From positions 1 through 55,767 of the IMG/VR virus record IMGVR_UViG_3300019776_000206: 55,767 nt of DNA; one strand, 5' to 3'. Shown in pieces: positions 10,896 to 43,286 of the stretch (position 1 is the stretch's first letter; each line of letters begins with the position of its first letter). A model generated the notes under the pieces. That model was not told the DNA's origin. It made no database searches and was given only the letters and a program-made list of their open reading frames with translations. Position numbers and translations under genes: made by a program. The stretch is from a virus.

Positions 10896-13800
10896 TTATC
10901 CTATTGCGATCCAACTAATACCAGCACTTGCAACCGCCGCGCCTGTTGCACGATCTTGAGCTTGAAACGTTATTGATGTTGTTGATTTCGCAGTAATAAC
11001 GACAAGTATATTGCTAGTCGATGTGCCAACAGGAGCATAGCTAGTATCAGGGAAGCTCACCGTTACCGTAAGATTACCCGAACCGTCAGCAGCTTGCGCA
11101 CCGCTGAATATCCGCTTGCCCCATGTCGGAGTTGCACTACTTCCAGCACTCGTTAATACTTGACCTGTTGATCCTGCATCCGTATTCAAAAATAAAGGAG
11201 TAGAACCAGTTTTTAGCCTAAATTTGCCAGTAAAACTCGCAGAATAACCTGTGCTAGAATTTGCAACATCTAAAGCAGAATCAGTAGATGTAGAAGTGAT
11301 AAACACTGTTGGCTGTGATGATGCGACCGTATCAATGACAGTAAATGCTGGATTGGCATTATTATCATTTTTTACCGCAGATAATAACGGGCTACCAATA
11401 CCAGAAACCATATTCACATAAGACGTACCGCCTAAAGTAAATTTAGCGCCGCCAGATGCATCAATGTTTCCGTTCAATGACAGCCCTGTTCCATTCCACT
11501 TGATGTTATTACTTAAATTCCCCAAGTGGAACTTATACGATCCACTATCATACCCAAGCCAGAACCCCGCAGTCGTATCAGAGTAGGAAGTTTTCCCACC
11601 CATAAATGATCCAGCAGTGCCAACCGTCAAGCCCCCTGTAACAGTCAATGCACCTGTATTTACCGTGATTGCAGATAAATTGCCGACCTTTAAACTTGAG
11701 ATATAAGGCGTTCCCCATGTAGTATTACCCGTTGCAGGATCAGCGATACCGTCCGATACATAAAGTGAATCTGTACTGCTTGGGTTTGGATCAGTTGCGC
11801 CCCATGTCGCCGCAAATCCCCATGTTGATGTAGATTGCGCACTACTAGGATAAGCAACGTTTGTTGTGGTAACACTTCCCGTTACTGGCGCTGGATTGCT
11901 TGGAACCCGCGCATAACATACCCGCGCGGATAGTCCATTCCCACCAGAATACCCCGCTGCAATGATGCTTGCTGTCGCCCAATTGATCGTTGATGTAGTC
12001 GCCGCCGCGCCATCCGTAACCGTGATATTTGCCGCCCAAAGCGTAAAACCCTGCGTTGGCGATGTGCTACTTGAAACCGACCAACCAGAAGGAACCGGAG
12101 TTATCGAACCATCAGCCCAAGTGTAAGTAGATGATCCTGAAATGGTCGGGATAGTCGCCGCCCATTGATATACAGTAGCTTTCGCAGTTTTAGCTCCGCT
12201 AGAACCAGTTGCGCCATTTTGCGACCACGCAGATACCGCCGTGCCAGCCCATGCAATCGTGGTACTTGTTCCCGATCCTGTGACCGATTTTGTTGCTACC
12301 CATAATTGTATAAGTGGAGTTCCGGGATTAGCAGGAACCGCAACAGACCATCCATCACCTCCCGTATAAGAACCATTTGTGGCAGTCGCCCATGTGAAAG
12401 TAGAATTTCCCGTTGGCGTTGATGGCGTAGTAGTTGACCACTGATACAAATAAGCCGTAGCAGTCTGATTAATAACGACTGTATTAGCCACCAAGCCAGC
12501 ACTAGCGCCAAACGTCAAGCCTGATTTATCAAACGAATCATAACCAGCGTATTTGATGTAATACGTTGTTGTATCGGTTAATGGCGTTCCATCTTGCAGA
12601 GTGGTAATCGTGTAGGAAGTATTCGGGCCATCATAAACAAGAGTTGAACCGCTTGGAGTAAATCCGTTTGTAGTGCTGATATGAACCTGAATGCCTGCAA
12701 AGTCTGAATCACTTGGTTTATCGCAAGTAAATACAAACGATTTCAGCCCCGAAACGATCTTGATATTAGACAATGCGCCAATTTGCGTATTAGTGACCGC
12801 TAAAGTTGCGAATGCACCCGCAGCGCCGTTGGCGTTGATGCCTTGAACTTTGATTGTAATTTGTCGCCATGGCCCACCATCAGCTTTAGCATCAGCAGCA
12901 GAATAATCGAACCGCAAAGCATCACCGACATTAACCTGTCTGCGTATGGTCAATGTGCTAGTGTCTAAAATCTGCACGTTGTAACTAGCAGCATTCCCGA
13001 CTTTATCCCATTTGAACTTTGCAGTGTCTAGCGTAAAAGTTCCCTCTAACGCCAAGTTTGCAGGCGCTACGGGAGGTAAGTTAGCCTGCGCACCTGTTAT
13101 CGTGTAGGTGTAAGCGGAAACGTCTGCGAGGCTTTGCAAAGCGCCTTTGTAGAAGTTAAACGCGAGCAACTTAATATAGATCGTTTTTCCGATGTAGTCC
13201 TTAGTTAGAGGCATCTTTGCAATTGCCTCATCACATCGGACAAAAGAAGAACCACTAGCCTTTGAGGTTTGACCGCTTAAATATGCGCCACGGCTTAAAT
13301 TAGGCCCTAGCGTATAGGCATTAGCGCCCGTTAAAGTTGCGGCTTGATATGCGAAAAATTCCCCTCCAACATAACATAGCGTGGTCAATTGCGCCAAGTC
13401 TGTAGCAGACCCCGCCAATAATTGACCGCCAGCGAGTAATGATACCCCTACCGTTTCGTTATACGACCCAGCAGAACCACGACTAGCCATTGATGTTGTT
13501 GTCGTGCCATAACGCGACTTTCCTTGCATCGTGTAGGCGCGTTCGTATGTCGTACCGTCAAGGCTAGTCCAAATCTCGCAACCGCCGTAATTATCGCCGC
13601 CACCTGTCGCAAGCCAAATCTCCAAGCTATCTGCACTTGCCGATGACATCGCCGCGACACCTTCAAAAATGACAGGCGTAAATGCGTTACCCGGTGGAGT
13701 GTTGTAGTTATGTTCAAAACCAGACCCGCTACCAGAAGGATATAAAGTCGCAGATGCAGAACCTTTTGGGAACTCTTCCGCTGTAATAGTTAATTCACCG

Positions 13801-30495: not shown

Positions 30496-32010
30496 TTATT
30501 GGTTTTTAGTTGATTTGTAAAAATCCATTAAACCTTGATTTTTCAAAGTTGATTTGCAGAATGTAAGCCCGAGAGAATCGGCATTATCAGGCGATCTAAA
30601 TCCGCGCTTTTTCATATCTTCTTTGCGCTCGATTTTCAATGCTGAGTTTGAATCATAGGAATATCTGATTTGCGTTAAATCTGCTTGGAGTTCGTCACTA
30701 TCGGGGATTTGCGCAGGCTGATCTAATAGCCACTCTTTTGTAAGCCCCCATATCTCAGCGCGTTTATTGGAGTATTTAACTTTGTCCGATGGGGCTTCCG
30801 CGCTGTTCACCGCGATTAACAGATTAGGATCAACGACCTCGCATAATCGATCATATACGCCAGCGCCAAGACCGCCAACGTCAATCATTACACGATCACC
30901 GTCACTAGCCTTCATTTCTATTTCATTGATAGCAGACTTAACAAGACCGACCACTTCCATCGTATCCTTTTTTGAATACGATCTAATCCAAGGAACTTTG
31001 CGTCCATGCCTAAAGCAAATAGATGTTCGGTCATCACCGAATCGTGCTGGATCAACCCCAAGCATTTTAGAACCGCTTACCTCTGCGATGGCTTTACGTG
31101 CAACCATAACAATTTCTGGCTGAATGTAAGGATCTTGCCCAGATACTTGAAATGCCTCTGCTGCTGTCGCTGGGTATTCTTGTTTGAATAGGTTTGGGTC
31201 TTTTAATTCAGCAATCTTCAATCTACGCCATACGATCTGCCCAAGATTGAGACCGTAAGCATCCATGTAATCTTTTTCTTCCTGCGTGATTTTAAAATCA
31301 TCAGGTACAGTTTTGGAGTATTCGGATTGCCAGAACCAAGGAACAAAAATAGCAATGTATTCAGAATCACCAGACTCCGCAGCTTGCCATTGTTGGTGGA
31401 AATAATTACCAATACCATTGGCAGTTGATTCCATAATTGATTCGGTATTAGGTTCATCAGGAATAGCCTGCAAAATCCCCGCCGCATGCATTTGTGCATT
31501 AGGCCAGAATGCGACCTCTGAACCGTGGAATAGCTGAATTGTTGATCCGCGCCCTACCGCCTTATTTCCAGCGGTTCCAACTTTATACCCTGAGTCGAGC
31601 TTATCAAAATAAAGCTCTTTGGCATTTGCAGCACCAGTCGAAGGCTTAACCAATGGAGGACAGTTCTCATGATAGCGATCTGCAAGCTCAAATAAGTTAT
31701 TGGTTGCCGACTCATCATGAGTTAGGATAAACGCTCTAGCGCCTTTGGCATGAGTTACGCGCCAATAAAAGCGGCCTTCGACATAAGTTGACGCGCCTTG
31801 CTGCCTACCCTTGAGAATGATTGCGCGAACCTTCCCAGTTCTAGCGCGTTGATCTTCGATGCGTTCATGAATATAGGTCTGTGCCTCATTCATTACAAAC
31901 GGCAACACCTTGCCAGCTTTAGTCCTGATCTTTAAGCACTTAGACGAATAATGCTTAAAGTCATCCTTTAGCCTTTGCCGTATTTCTCGCTCTTTATTAC
32001 TTAAGGTCAT
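30496..32010 (-). CDS. terL: Terminase large subunit, 504 aa
   Basis: ATPase half: Walker A-type KGRQQGASTY (about 66-75; in this family the Lys/Arg lies at the start of the loop) and the Walker B-like strand followed by TESIMESTANG. Nuclease half: GVDPARFGDDRTSI (about 320-333), IDVGGLGAGVYDRL, and SPDNADSLGLTFC near the end, the RNase H-type metal site. It packages DNA into proheads. Its start overlaps terS by 14 bases. Notably the portal gene does not follow directly: three to four small genes and promoters intervene. Confidence 0.93.
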   Translation of the reverse strand: MTLSNKEREIRQRLKDDFKHYSSKCLKIRTKAGKVLPFVMNEAQTYIHERIEDQRARTGKVRAIILKGRQQGASTYVEGRFYWRVTHAKGARAFILTHDESATNNLFELADRYHENCPPLVKPSTGAANAKELYFDKLDSGYKVGTAGNKAVGRGSTIQLFHGSEVAFWPNAQMHAAGILQAIPDEPNTESIMESTANGIGNYFHQQWQAAESGDSEYIAIFVPWFWQSEYSKTVPDDFKITQEEKDYMDAYGLNLGQIVWRRLKIAELKDPNLFKQEYPATAAEAFQVSGQDPYIQPEIVMVARKAIAEVSGSKMLGVDPARFGDDRTSICFRHGRKVPWIRSYSKKDTMEVVGLVKSAINEIEMKASDGDRVMIDVGGLGAGVYDRLCEVVDPNLLIAVNSAEAPSDKVKYSNKRAEIWGLTKEWLLDQPAQIPDSDELQADLTQIRYSYDSNSALKIERKEDMKKRGFRSPDNADSLGLTFCKSTLKNQGLMDFYKSTKNQ

Positions 32011-32419
32011 CTAATGCAGATTCGTGACTGATTACATGGACTTCTGTTTTATCAGTGAATAATTTTAAATGGCGACCTAATAACTCAGCACCTTTCAAAA
32101 CATTTGCAGCGTCAAACTTAAATTCGCCAGATGGCTGACCATTAACTAAAACAGGCTCAGACTGACTACACCGTTCAATTGTTTTTTTAATCGTTTCTAG
32201 GACGTATTCAGCGTTAATCTGAGTCTTTTGAGACCGATTATCCATTTCTTTTTGAATATGTTCGGCTATATGAGGTTTGGTGAGGTTTTCATAACCTGTC
32301 TCTGTTGCTGTTTTTTCGCTATACCCTGCACGAATCGCCGCTTGAGTCGCATTAAGATCAATAAGATATTCCTTGCAAAATAGCAACTGTTTTGCGGTTA
32401 GCTTAGGATCATTACTCAT
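31997..32419 (-). CDS. terS: Terminase small subunit, 140 aa
   Basis: LTAKQLLFCKEYLIDLNATQAAIRAGYSEKTATETGYENLTKPHIAEHIQKEMDN is the Terminase_2 (PF03592) pattern with an HTH for recognising the packaging site. I start at the ATG of MSNDPKLTAKQ (32,419); an in-frame ATG at 32,542 would add 41 residues unlike the family. No strong ribosome site is visible at either start. It is downstream of the tmRNA region on the same strand. Confidence 0.88.
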   Translation of the reverse strand: MSNDPKLTAKQLLFCKEYLIDLNATQAAIRAGYSEKTATETGYENLTKPHIAEHIQKEMDNRSQKTQINAEYVLETIKKTIERCSQSEPVLVNGQPSGEFKFDAANVLKGAELLGRHLKLFTDKTEVHVISHESALDDLK

Positions 32420-33055
32420 AGAATTTAAATTTAACGAATGTTTGTGTATTCGTAGATTAGCATATTTTTTATTATGCTGCGAGGAAATCAAAGGTTCTTG
32501 CATGTTCAATACCGCGCCATTACCAGAACATACTTGAAACATAGAGTCCCGAACCTTCGGATTGTCTTGTTAAAACAGATAGCGCATCCGTTAAAACATC
32601 TATCTATGAGTTTTTAATAACCTGCAAAATATGCTTAGCGATCAACAAAACACATTTTTGCAAATTATCAATTAAATTGGCCTCAGTGTTTTGACGCTAC
32701 CTGAGTCGCAGCGGGCATTGCATAATTAAAACTCGCGCCACCAAGAGGACATTCTTCCGTGCCAGAAAAGCATTATGCGAACTAATATGTATGACTTGCA
32801 CTTGCTGATAAATTTTACTGCCTATCCATTATCAACATAGAAAGTAGCTACCGTTTATTCCCGACATGGCTCCGACGGTAAAGCGGACTTTTTGCGGGAT
32901 ATTCATCTACCTTCTATCTTGATACTGAATTGACCGTACTTTCCGATCTGCCAGATAGTTTCCGTTCTATCTTATACGCCCTTGCGTATTCGGTTCGCTG
33001 CAAATTAGGTAGCCCGTCTTTTGATTATAAGGCTCGGGCAATTCCTCATTTGGCG

Positions 33056-33094
33056 TTAAGCGTTAGCTGCTACCAAAAATTGTGCATCGTTTGC
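33056..33094 (-). other. tmRNA tag reading frame (ANDAQFLVAANA)
   Basis: Resume codon GCA at 33,094-33,092, preceded by AGAAAT; frame GCA AAC GAT GCA CAA TTT TTG GTA GCA GCT AAC GCT TAA. It begins AND, as most proteobacterial tags do, and has VAA in the usual degron place, but runs two codons further to end -ANA. Confidence 0.8.
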
Positions 33095-33180
33095 ATTTCT
33101 GCGTTTTGCTTGATTTGCGGTCATCGCCTACCGTGTCGCCTTTCTCTGCATTCTTGCACTGTCGAAACCAAGTCATCCCC

Positions 33181-33217
33181 ATCAAAAACAGTCGTTAAAA
33201 AAACTGACAACTGCTTT
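33181..33217 (-). other. Spacer joining tmRNA acceptor and coding parts
   Basis: 37 bases between the encoded CCA and the GGGG 5' end. They can form a stem-loop (CAGUUGU with ACGACUG, 7 bp, 11-base loop) followed by UUUUUG. In known permuted pre-tmRNAs this segment is removed to leave two base-paired pieces. Confidence 0.7.
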
Positions 33218-33477
33218 TGGTGGAGATGGCGGGAGTCGAACCCGCGTCCAATACAATTCAACTTCAAAGGAATTACGACAATTCGTTGATACTTTGCAAT
33301 AGCGCCAGTAGATCCTCGAAAAATCCATACTGACGCTTCCGTTAAATTAATGCATCAACACGGCTAAACACTAAACAAGGCTTCACTTCCCATTTCTGGC
33401 GCGGCTGACTACATTCAAAATTTCAGGTATTGAATAAGCCTCTACGTCTTATTTAATGCTTATGCGTCTTAATTCTC

Positions 33478-33529
33478 AAAAAATCCCGACCATCACACGA
33501 CAGTCGGGAAAACTAGCCTTTCGACTAGT
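33478..33529 (-). terminator. Terminator pair upstream of the tmRNA
   Basis: CCCGAC/GTCGGG stem (33,485-33,508) followed by six U on the minus strand, plus a smaller ACTAG/CTAGT stem with UUUU (33,512-33,529). They would stop leftward transcripts from 33,683-34,635, so the tmRNA needs its own promoter; TTGAGA-18-TAAATA at about 33,445-33,477 is a weak candidate. Confidence 0.7.
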
Positions 33530-33541
33530 GGGAGATACCGA

Positions 33542-33619
33542 TTTAATCCTACTATTCCACGATAAGAGCCAAATCTAAAAACTGGATATGGTACGAAATA
33601 ATAGGATTTAAACTTTTTT
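33542..33619. repeat. Long inverted repeat with 40-base interior
   Basis: Arms TTTAATCCTACTATT (33,542-33,556) and AATAATAGGATTTAAA (33,597-33,612) pair with one bulge and one mismatch; an interior stem ATC/GGAT region is possible. Six T follow on the plus strand (33,614-33,619). No plus-strand gene starts or ends nearby. It resembles in outline the IR elements at 39,960, 43,207 and 45,039. Confidence 0.45.
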
Positions 33620-33682
33620 CTACTGCCGCGCAAACAATAGAAATTAAAACTAAAAATAAAACTTGGTAGTTCGTTTATTCTA

Positions 33683-33865
33683 CTACGAAAACTTGAGTAC
33701 GCAAACCCAAACGAAGAAAGCGATGCCTAATAACAACGAAAAAATATCTTCCCCAATTTCCGTTTTTTCCATACGAGGGTGTTTCCCGATTACTCTTGAG
33801 CTACGAACAATTATTCCTAATATTCCGATCCAAAAAACTACCGTCAAATATGTATCAATTCCCAT
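33683..33865 (-). CDS. Small membrane protein, 60 aa
   Basis: Two hydrophobic segments (YLTVVFWIGILGIIVRSS and IFSLLLGIAFFVWVCVLKF) flank a charged loop. AAAGGAG lies inside the end of the upstream gene, 8 bases before this ATG, so the two are co-translated. Function unknown. Confidence 0.6.
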   Translation of the reverse strand: MGIDTYLTVVFWIGILGIIVRSSRVIGKHPRMEKTEIGEDIFSLLLGIAFFVWVCVLKFS

Positions 33866-33866
33866 C

Positions 33867-34460
33867 TTATTCTCCTTTTGATATTCTGTAACCCGCTACT
33901 TTTGACCAATTAAAATCGGTAGGTAATACACTATCTGCATATGTACAATCATTAAATTGCACATCTACTTTTACCGAAGATGGCAATGGGCATTTACCAC
34001 CATCCCAAGTGATCCACCCGTCATCATGTTTTTTACAAGGATAAGCTTTAGCGACGCGGTAAGCTACTATATCGCAATCTCGCGCCCCAGTTCCTTCCCA
34101 TTTGTATTTTGTATCAGTGCCATATCGTATATGACCACTTCCAAACTTTAAATCTACAATCTCATTTTCATTTACTGGGCAACTTCCACCAGACCAACTT
34201 ATCCAACCATCAGCATGGTCCTCTTTCTGGTCTTGCGATACTTTTGGAATTTTTTCAGAAATTACCTTTGTACCTTGTTCATTCCAAATTTGATCTGCGT
34301 CTTCCATACCAAGCGCAAACTGATAAGTAACCATCGCCACCGCTGCCAAAATTAGCGTATCCGTAACCTCGATTGCGTTTGGCACGTATTGCGAGACTTC
34401 TTTTATCGCTTCTTCTCGCGCTTGCTTAGCTTCTTGCTCAAGCTGGTTTAGTGTTTTCAT
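33867..34460 (-). CDS. Phage protein with two W-GG-CP repeats, 197 aa
   Basis: The C-terminal two thirds contain two copies of DGWI.W.GG.CP...VD..F........F.W......AYRV (about 84-135 and 145-195). This repeat is common in phage early proteins of unknown function. The N-terminal 60 residues are helical with a hydrophobic run (LILAAVAMVTYQFALGM). Overlaps the preceding gene by 23 bases. Confidence 0.7.
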   Translation of the reverse strand: MKTLNQLEQEAKQAREEAIKEVSQYVPNAIEVTDTLILAAVAMVTYQFALGMEDADQIWNEQGTKVISEKIPKVSQDQKEDHADGWISWSGGSCPVNENEIVDLKFGSGHIRYGTDTKYKWEGTGARDCDIVAYRVAKAYPCKKHDDGWITWDGGKCPLPSSVKVDVQFNDCTYADSVLPTDFNWSKVAGYRISKGE

Positions 34461-40856: not shown

Positions 40857-42080
40857 TTACACCTGTTCAATATCTTCGTAAATTTTCCAATCAACGCGCC
40901 GCCTTTTCATAAGCTCAACATACTTTTTATATGCGCTAGTTTTTGTTGGGCTAAATCCAAGACCTTTGCACCAATAATCGTTTCTCAAAATAGTCTTGCA
41001 AATCTTGCGCCACGTTGGAACCTTGCCATAACTTTCTAATCTTACTTCGGCCTTATCAGGTATGCCGTCTTGATAGCCCCTCTTAGACCACCATTTAAGA
41101 TAAACAGCCAACTTGTTTTTATAATGCTCTGCAGTTGGCTTTGGCATTGTATTAAGCAAGTGATTAGCAAAGCTTTCGTATGTGTGATTAGGAGGTAATG
41201 CAATGTGATGATTGCCAAGTACAGCGCCTTTTTCATCAGCATACAAAGCACCAGTATTTGCACCAGCAACACGCAAACAAACCTTTGCCCACATTTCAGG
41301 CTCTACAACTTGATACAGCCAAAGACCTTTTCTAGCCTCATCTCCAAACGGTTCGCAAATACGCATTTGAGATAATTTAATTCCAGCTTGATGCATTCGG
41401 TCATAAAGCTTGTTATACGGCTTTTCAAACTTTGCAAAGTATGTCCAAAGGTCTGTTGTTTTCCAGTCATAAATTGGATAAACATTCCAGCAATCCGCAA
41501 TAACTTTGGTTGTCCATGGCTTACCTTCGTACATTGGCTTATCTCGTGCAATAGTTCTAAAACGATTTAAGCTTTCATCTGCACGAATGCCAATAAATGC
41601 CGCGCATTCTTGCCCTTGTGCGTACCATTCGCCAAAGCATGGGACAAATTCTTCAAACGGCATACCATCAAAATAGAATGGGAATATTGAACCATCAGTA
41701 ATGCTAATTTCATCAGGTTGACGAACCCACAAATCTTTTTTGTTTTTGTCCCATGCTGTCCACTCTGGCTCGAATTGGCTAGTTGCGTTCCATGTTTTCA
41801 TCGGCAATGCTACCCAATATGGGTCAATCCATTCCGCATATTCAGAATACATTTCTTTTGCAAAGCGGATCGTATGGCTTATTTGACATTCCCAATCAAT
41901 AAACAAACAGCCTATTTTACGATTGCGATTTTTTGCCTCATCCATTACTAAATGAAGCATCAAAGTCGAATCTTTCCCAGCACTAAAGCTAATGTAAATT
42001 CGCTCAAAATTATCAAAAGTCCATTTAATACGTTCTTTTGCTGCGGTTAAAACATCAATTCCTAATCCACGTTTAGGCAT
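40857..42080 (-). CDS. ibrA: IbrA-like PP-loop protein (PAPS reductase family, DUF3440), 407 aa
   Basis: ISFSAGKDSTLMLHL (about 30-44) is the PP-loop of PAPS-reductase/ATP-pyrophosphatase enzymes; CLFIDWECQISHTIRFAKEMYSEY and later ISLSQMRICEPFGDEARKGLWLYQVVEPEMW are DUF3440/IbrA markers. With the ParB-like IbrB gene two genes upstream this is the IbrB-IbrA pair found in E. coli and phages; IbrA/B were named for controlling Ig-binding protein genes in E. coli. The reaction is unknown; nucleotide-binding and 3'-phosphate or sulfur chemistry are suggested by family. Confidence 0.83.
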   Translation of the reverse strand: MPKRGLGIDVLTAAKERIKWTFDNFERIYISFSAGKDSTLMLHLVMDEAKNRNRKIGCLFIDWECQISHTIRFAKEMYSEYAEWIDPYWVALPMKTWNATSQFEPEWTAWDKNKKDLWVRQPDEISITDGSIFPFYFDGMPFEEFVPCFGEWYAQGQECAAFIGIRADESLNRFRTIARDKPMYEGKPWTTKVIADCWNVYPIYDWKTTDLWTYFAKFEKPYNKLYDRMHQAGIKLSQMRICEPFGDEARKGLWLYQVVEPEMWAKVCLRVAGANTGALYADEKGAVLGNHHIALPPNHTYESFANHLLNTMPKPTAEHYKNKLAVYLKWWSKRGYQDGIPDKAEVRLESYGKVPTWRKICKTILRNDYWCKGLGFSPTKTSAYKKYVELMKRRRVDWKIYEDIEQV

Positions 42081-42471
42081 TTTTCTCTCCCATCAATTTT
42101 GCTATGTGTTTTTGCTTCCAGTATTCAATTGCTCGGTCTGCGGCTTCATTGGCTAAATCTTGCTGCTCTTCTGTCAAAGTTCTCCATGCAAGCCTAGTAA
42201 TATCTTCTGGTGCGTTATGATTGAAAGCACAAGCAGCGTGACCAATCCAAGCTTGATGATTGATTGACGATGCCGTTAAATTGCACTCACACGAGAAAGG
42301 CCATTCATCAACAACTTTTCGGCAAACCTGCTCAAAACAATCATATTCGATCATTAAATTTCTTGAATATTCCTGCAAGCTTTCCCGCTTTTCAATTGGA
42401 ACCATTCGCCACATATCAGTTTTAAATTCTTCGCACAATTCAAAACGATGAAATATTCTTTTAATCTTCAC
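42073..42471 (-). CDS. Protein between IbrB and IbrA, 132 aa
   Basis: RIFHRFELCEEFKTDMWRMV...VVDEWPFSCECNLTASSINHQAWIGHAACAFNHNAPEDITRLAWRTLTEEQQDLANEAADRAIEYW. The pattern EWP.SCE.NLT..SINR.AWIGHAAC...PE...R.AW..L...Q..LAN..AD.AI is one I recall next to IbrA/IbrB in phages. Its ends overlap both flanking genes (8 and 11 bases), so it belongs to the same unit. Function unknown. Confidence 0.72.
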   Translation of the reverse strand: MKIKRIFHRFELCEEFKTDMWRMVPIEKRESLQEYSRNLMIEYDCFEQVCRKVVDEWPFSCECNLTASSINHQAWIGHAACAFNHNAPEDITRLAWRTLTEEQQDLANEAADRAIEYWKQKHIAKLMGEKNA

Positions 42472-43177
42472 TGATCAATTCCTCATTATCGTTTGAAATA
42501 TCGGTAAAAGATTCTGCTTCCCACGCTTCGGAAAATTCCGAGTCATTGAACAATGAAGCAAGACCAGTAATTTGCGTCAATCGCAAAACTTCATCAGGTT
42601 CCATGCCAAGCTGCTTTGCAATCTTCTCATCAGACCAAAAACGGCGCTTCAATTCCACGACAATATCAGACATGGCATCAACTTTATGTTTTCCGCGAGC
42701 ACGGTTATGGCGAATAGTCGAAGCCATGCGATCAGACTTATCTTCTTGGCTTTCACGAATTTGTACCAGTGGTAAATAGCCATGAACTCGCGATTGAATA
42801 TCGGCGCATTCTTTACCAACGCGATGACGGTGGAACCCATCAATGACCTCAAAACGCCCATCAGGATCAATCATTGAAACAATTGGCTGCGTATATCCAT
42901 CAGCTTCAATTGAAAGGCGCAGCAATTCCATTTCAGGCGGCGCAACGCTATTCGGGTTATAGTCATTTGCATGCACTTCTGTGTTTTTAACCCAGCGCAC
43001 AAAATCAACAGGCTCGGTATTGAATGGGCTATGTGAGTGAATTGTTTCTCTCAATTCATTAATTGCATTAACTAAGTCATCACCTTGAATTTTTTCAAGC
43101 AATGCTTTTAATTGATCGACCACCAAAGCAACTTTATCCTGCTTTGGCGCATCAATAAATAAATCTAAATTCTCCAT
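42461..43177 (-). CDS. ibrB: IbrB-like ParB/Srx-domain protein, 238 aa
   Basis: ANDYNPNSVAPPEMELLRLSIEADGYTQPIVSMIDPDGRFEVIDGFHRHRVGKE is a ParB N-terminal domain (GxxQPI, DGxHR); then ASTIRHNRARGKHKVDAMSDIVVELKRRFWSDEKIAKQLGMEPDEVLRLTQITGL, the IbrB core with HTH. Start at the ATG after AAAGGGATG (43,177). ParB-type domains use CTP in relatives; here a DNA-binding or nuclease role paired with IbrA is inferred. Confidence 0.84.
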   Translation of the reverse strand: MENLDLFIDAPKQDKVALVVDQLKALLEKIQGDDLVNAINELRETIHSHSPFNTEPVDFVRWVKNTEVHANDYNPNSVAPPEMELLRLSIEADGYTQPIVSMIDPDGRFEVIDGFHRHRVGKECADIQSRVHGYLPLVQIRESQEDKSDRMASTIRHNRARGKHKVDAMSDIVVELKRRFWSDEKIAKQLGMEPDEVLRLTQITGLASLFNDSEFSEAWEAESFTDISNDNEELISED

Positions 43178-43206
43178 ATCATCCCTTTGTAATAGTCGAA
43201 AAAAAA

Positions 43207-43286
43207 CCTTCTTGAGTAAAGTGGCTGGGGAATCCAACTTAACTGATTGGTAAAATCAAGTCAGAAAGCCACTTTACTAAAGAAGG
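43207..43286 (-). repeat. Long IR RNA element 2 in the ibrB leader
   Basis: Arms of 20 bases (43,207-43,226 and 43,267-43,286) pair with one mismatch; eight U follow on the minus strand (43,199-43,206). A 40-base interior can form a smaller stem (TGATT/AATCA). It lies between a promoter (43,338-43,366) and ibrB, so transcripts must pass it: attenuation is plausible. Confidence 0.68.

Follow-up and report, generated by a model that had tools for sequence, protein, structure and literature searches.

A complete two-piece tmRNA gene in a viral genome and a recurrent viral tag class ending in Ala-Asn-Ala

Two-piece tmRNAs encoded by phages have been published, that of phage Melnitz among them, and 53 of the 133 unique phage tmRNA structures reported were of the two-piece kind (PMC9004378); 79 of the sequences in the tmRNA database come from phages (PMC11915505). 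A two-piece tmRNA in a phage is a kind of RNA already known, and what is new in the locus described here is its tag, which belongs to a recurrent class ending in Ala-Asn-Ala (ANA). No paper describing a tag class ending in AANA was recognised in open-access full text by word match. We know of no demonstration so far of the role of phage tmRNAs.

The window, by which is meant the whole stretch of DNA that was analysed, is a virus record in IMG/VR, 55,767 bases long, with genes for terminase, portal, tape measure and tail, a DnaB-type helicase, Erf, SSB and NinB/NinG. The tmRNA gene sits in a 1.3-kb gap between called genes and is on the minus strand like both flanking genes, which are a gene without assigned function at 33867-34460 and, as the next one downstream, that of the terminase small subunit at 31997..32542 (phrog_51, E 5e-37); the terminase large subunit is at 30496..32010, also on the minus strand (phrog_2, E 4.5e-27). 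A position with early-type genes on one side and the terminase genes on the other had been given in an earlier sequence-only reading of this DNA, and it holds. Upstream of the tmRNA gene, the minus strand has a terminator-like hairpin at 33484..33509 (11 bp and a T run, by consensus match only), which probably ends the preceding transcript. The flanking non-coding DNA of the minus strand, at 32550-32940 (about 400 nt) and 33310-33860 (about 550 nt), has no match in Rfam. No SmpB gene was found in the window or in seven records sharing the tag, so a phage-supplied SmpB was rejected and the protein would have to be that of the host. Elsewhere in the window, a gene of the phosphoadenosine phosphosulfate reductase family (40857-42080, minus strand; phrog_2302, E 5e-91) lies beside a ParB-like gene at 42461-43237.

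A permuted tmRNA with the tag ANDAQFLVAANA was called by ARAGORN on the minus strand at 32965-33310, and two Rfam models were matched over their full length with cmscan, RF04321 (tmRNA_permuted) at 33280-33056 with 133.6 bits against a cut-off of 47 (E 4.9e-26), and RF01850 (beta_tmRNA) at 33331-33005 with 127.4 bits against a cut-off of 84 (E 1.6e-38). A chance match to these models is excluded, and it is near certain that the RNA is a tmRNA. The whole gene, permuted and probably of the beta type, runs from 33331 to about 32945, and the end at 32680 assigned in the sequence-only reading was too far downstream; its inner coordinates, namely the CCA ending at 33218, the 37-nt spacer, the 5' end at 33180 and the acceptor pairing, proved exact. 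The 3' half, or acceptor piece, is located at 33218..33280 by Rfam alignment and sequence, and consists of an upstream helix strand, the T arm GCGGG-TTCGACT-CCCGC (33229..33245), the 3' strand of the acceptor stem CATCTCC (33222..33228), which holds U70, and ACCA at 33221-33218 with the encoded CCA. The intervening spacer, 33217-33181, is predicted to form a hairpin continuing the acceptor stem and would be removed on maturation; spacer and acceptor strands together fold with -26.6 kcal/mol against -8.9 +/- 2.4 for shuffles (z -7.3).

The mRNA-like half begins with GGGGATGACTTGGTTTCGAC at 33180, and its mature 5' end is the 5' strand of the acceptor stem, GGGGATG (33174..33180; sequence and Rfam alignment), which pairs with CATCTCC at 7 of 7 positions including G3:U70, the alanine identity pair. 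A resume codon and a tag frame closed by a stop codon are present, the frame called by ARAGORN being GCA AAC GAT GCA CAA TTT TTG GTA GCA GCT AAC GCT TAA at 33056..33094, stop included. The tRNA-like domain and the first downstream hairpin align to RF01850, and the last hairpin of that model is deleted; the structured 3' part, 32945..33055, reaches about 60 nt past the Rfam model and is shared with L119, a viral contig of 44.7 kb. No single-piece 3' end was found downstream of the tag, and no standard tmRNA was called by ARAGORN or cmscan. The Infernal comparison named in the sequence-only reading thus bears out its main claim, that the phage encodes a two-piece rescue RNA of its own, by a complete permuted tmRNA on the minus strand; the tag frame it had pointed to is also there, but the unusual end of the tag, the feature that tells most about this RNA, had been missed.

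Covariation was examined in the ten ANA-tag tmRNAs that have a regular T arm, the RNAs of L126, with a T loop of six bases, and L118 being irregular. In each of the ten the T and acceptor stems are fully paired (12 of 12), and 7 of these 12 tRNA-like pairs show two-sided changes, comprising 4 of the 5 pairs of the T arm helix and three pairs of the acceptor stem, in which U70:G3 is invariant (10/10). None of 500 shuffles matched the covariation score, and the pairing was likewise beyond all 500. Because the stems pair and covary beyond shuffles with G3:U70 unchanged, the comparison indicates that the RNAs of this set are maintained. The RNA of L119 is the closest to that of the window that was found (78% over the tree columns), and the two align over some 400 nt, continuing for about 60 nt after the Rfam model stops, a stretch in which the hairpins 32989-32974 and 32972-32953 change on both sides between the two phages. 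Among sequenced phages no close relative of the window RNA emerged, the matches being confined to the T arm and acceptor region and to short stretches.

No relative of the large terminase of the window was found in the record of L119, which may be a fragment, and in the DNA examined around terminase relatives in viral contigs there is no tmRNA. Since these relatives show none, the lineage of the window appears to have acquired its tmRNA independently, as a recent or often-lost gain, and this speaks for a mere passenger with no role in infection, either a host gene captured not long ago or a remnant of an attachment site. The ssrA gene is a frequent integration site of mobile elements, which also fits such an origin. 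However, no tyrosine integrase gene was found in the window or in seven tag-sharing records, on which ground an attachment-site origin was rejected, and the gene is complete, its helices covary, and the same RNA is retained along the aligned length in L119, where no terminase relative was detected; a passenger is the least credible of the readings considered here.

A degenerate version does exist in the viral contig L118, where the permuted tmRNA at 10966-11236 has a shrunken T arm, C instead of U at position 70, and the tag ANDSTYLIAANA; this RNA may be unchargeable, and not every member sharing the tag need then be functional. Close by, the contig also has a group I intron and two genes for tRNA-Arg. 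The existence of degenerate versions would fit a decoy, an RNA whose tRNA-like domain would compete for SmpB or ribosomes and block trans-translation of the host, as reported for the molecule of mycobacteriophage DS6A, which consists of the tRNA-like domain only, and a DS6A-like molecule of this sort does inhibit tmRNA (PMC4131195; PMC11915505). The copy in the window, however, has a complete tag frame, a resume region, G3:U70, an encoded CCA and downstream structures, none of which a decoy would need, and for the window this explanation is very improbable.

The tag ANDAQFLVAANA keeps the N-terminal AND..F and ends in Ala-Asn-Ala, not in Ala-Ala or a close variant of it. In recognition by ClpXP the terminal Ala-Ala-carboxylate matters most, and a change of the penultimate residue raises KM (PMC7652416). 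With the Ala-Asn-Ala end the penultimate residue is changed and the remaining signal is shifted. Because the penultimate residue of the ClpXP signal is altered, the favoured reading, to which we give about an even chance, is that of a working phage tmRNA whose tag would be a weak degron, with ribosome rescue partly uncoupled from proteolysis. Following known tmRNA biology, a single precursor would be cut at the spacer with the two pieces remaining paired, the molecule would be charged by the alanyl-tRNA synthetase of the host, and SmpB and EF-Tu of the host would bring it to ribosomes that had stalled on broken mRNAs, where Ala-ANDAQFLVAANA would be appended before the ribosome is released. 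The altered end would weaken the Ala-Ala-carboxylate signal for ClpXP, so that ribosomes might be freed during infection with most tagged products spared rapid destruction. Against a weak degron it can be said that ANA keeps the C-terminal alanine carboxylate, so that some ClpXP recognition may be left, that ClpAP, Lon or other proteases may accept ANA, and that one bacterial lineage has an ANA tag in its own ssrA.

The viral sequences were searched with a pattern consisting of the 5' core of tmRNA and any tag AND...ANA of 8 to 18 residues, with the ends fixed and the length free. It matched 14 viral contigs besides the window, and a permuted tmRNA was recognised by Rfam in all 14, including L127, which is cut at the edge of the locus (47.8 bits). 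The length of the tag is exactly 12 residues in every one of them, with the form AND..[FY]...ANA, and the viral ANA tags include ANDSHFLQAANA, ANDSTYLIAANA, ANDANFKVAANA, ANDDTFLLAANA, ANDDTYLLAANA, ANDSSFLMTANA, ANDSTYALRANA, ANDSQFLMMANA, ANDSQFLLAANA and ANDELFLMMANA. The phages sharing the tag are diverse, on contigs of 11-281 kb without a close relative of the terminase of the window. Large contigs with ANA-tag tmRNAs are L124, L125, L128, L130 and L117 (65-281 kb), and L124 also carries genes for a DNA ligase and a ribonucleotide reductase. In a sample blind to the end of the tag, 3 of 78 complete viral tags end in ANA and 75 in AA or VA, two further frames being unusable and outside the 78. 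Among the 159 permuted tmRNAs collected that were left after removal of near-copies, the commonest end is LAA (109), followed by ANA (13), IAA (9), MAA (6), MVA (6), VAA (4) and a few others; ANA is enriched in this set by the targeted search, and ARAGORN may have miscalled a few of the rare ends. That the tmRNA works and its ANA end has drifted neutrally, without consequence, would agree with the variation of some phage tags (MVA, LVA, and RYA in Xanthomonas phage X1, whose tag ends in SVARYA), but the same 12-residue form stands on separate RNA backbones and nearly all other tags end in AA or VA, which makes drift improbable.

The main rival to the weak degron, possible though rather unlikely, is that the same working tmRNA carries in ANA a full degron, matched to the host and read by it or by an adaptor or protease supplied by the phage, with rescue and degradation coupled. 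The fixed length of the tag and the aromatic residue at position 6 look as if read by something, and an ANA tag can serve a cell, since a Ramlibacter/Comamonadaceae lineage has it in its own ssrA. Over 84,980 prokaryote species the AND...ANA pattern, which covers tags starting with Ala-Asn-Asp and stopping with TAA, found 12 loci, of which five are tmRNAs; the corresponding AA pattern picks up 57 of 94 genomes of that class, a sensitivity of about 60%. Three of the five are one-piece ssrA genes with the tag ANDSHYLQAANA in Ramlibacter/Comamonadaceae MAGs (L133, L136, L141), adjoined by ordinary chromosomal genes such as those for a sulfate permease, a methyltransferase, ompA and gyrA, and ANA as a purely phage trait was rejected on account of them. 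In two of these MAGs this gene is the sole one-piece tmRNA found, and the third has a second copy with the tag ANEDNYALAA. Relatives of the lineage have tags such as ANDERFALAA, and the ANA tag occurs in 1 of 401 genomes of the family. Judged from these searches, the ANA ending is very rare in bacteria, and against a full degron stands that a single bacterial lineage among all the species has it, yet the phages sharing the tag are diverse. The ClpX binding loops of the lineage (pore and RKH) are also unchanged, so that an altered ClpX was rejected.

The remaining two of the five loci are on MAG contigs (L135 and L138) with phage genes on the side of the tmRNA. At the first of these (L426 9803-10152 and 10241 onward, equal to L135 1803-2456) a one-piece tmRNA with the tag ADEDYALAA comes first, and 88 nt further on lies a second 5' half, of the permuted type and with the tag ANDDTYLLAANA; both GGGGGTG strands pair with one CACCTCC. 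The neighbours are bacterial genes on the left and phage-like genes on the right, and the locus may represent a prophage inserted at ssrA, a dual tmRNA, or sequences wrongly joined at the T arm during assembly.

In a tree of 168 tmRNAs, built on 148 columns with those of the tag left out and poorly resolved, the ANA label requires 15 changes against 14.6 for shuffled labels, and the starred branches force at least 8. The neighbours of ANA tags in the tree have LAA, MVA and IAA tags, in different places. As the ANA label is scattered over the tree, the simplest reading is that the tag arose repeatedly or that the tag segment was transferred; a single common origin was rejected from the lack of clustering on this poorly resolved tree, which leaves room for exchange of tags by recombination. 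More tentatively, and at rather less than an even chance, many unrelated phages may independently have given their own tmRNA the same 12-residue non-degron tag AND..[FY]...ANA, turning rescue-and-destroy into rescue-and-keep or marking the product for a different reader. With its recurrence on separate RNA backbones of phages and its near absence from bacteria, the ANA tag offers a direct test of whether a phage needs rescue without degradation of the tagged proteins.

A search outward from the window and from the tag-sharing RNAs found permuted tmRNAs, most of them unannotated, in 13 isolated phages (L429-L441) of Xanthomonas, Stenotrophomonas, Pseudomonas, Acinetobacter, Bordetella, Alcaligenes, Brevundimonas and Caulobacter. 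Among them are Stenotrophomonas phages DLP_6, IME-SM1, Marzo and QDWS359, Xanthomonas phages Rb1, XacN1 and X1, Pseudomonas phage PA_L9, Acinetobacter phage BUCT628, Bordetella phage PHB04 and Alcaligenes phage QDWS595. The own ssrA of Xanthomonas, Stenotrophomonas, Pseudomonas and Acinetobacter is one-piece. Because several hosts of phages with permuted tmRNAs thus have a one-piece tmRNA, a two-piece RNA of the host is not a precondition, and the suggestion in the sequence-only reading that the RNA might serve a host with a tmRNA of the two-piece kind is not needed; matching to the host type as the reason for a two-piece RNA is weakened by these gammaproteobacterial phage isolates. Phages can carry a two-piece tmRNA, then, in most cases without annotation, even where the tmRNA of the host is one-piece.

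The listed isolated phages share the RNA family with the window (RF04321, 77 to 137 bits) but differ in their tags, which end in AA except in X1, with ANA in none. With the betaproteobacterial two-piece tmRNA (RF01850, and the general RF04321) the RNA of the window has in common the permuted order, the T arm and acceptor pairing, the tag frame and the first downstream hairpin, but it is found in a phage, lacks the last hairpin of the model, has other hairpins past the end of the model and has a tag ending in AANA. Like the window, Methylophilales phage Melnitz encodes a permuted ssrA and has no integrase found, but its tmRNA clusters with those of Alphaproteobacteria (SAR11) and is controlled by a glutamine riboswitch (PMC9004378), whereas no Rfam riboswitch was found in the window and a Melnitz-style riboswitch ahead of the gene was therefore rejected. 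The tmRNA of mycobacteriophage DS6A, reduced to the tRNA-like domain, is a phage-borne relative but without a tag frame (PMC4131195), whereas the RNA of the window is complete.
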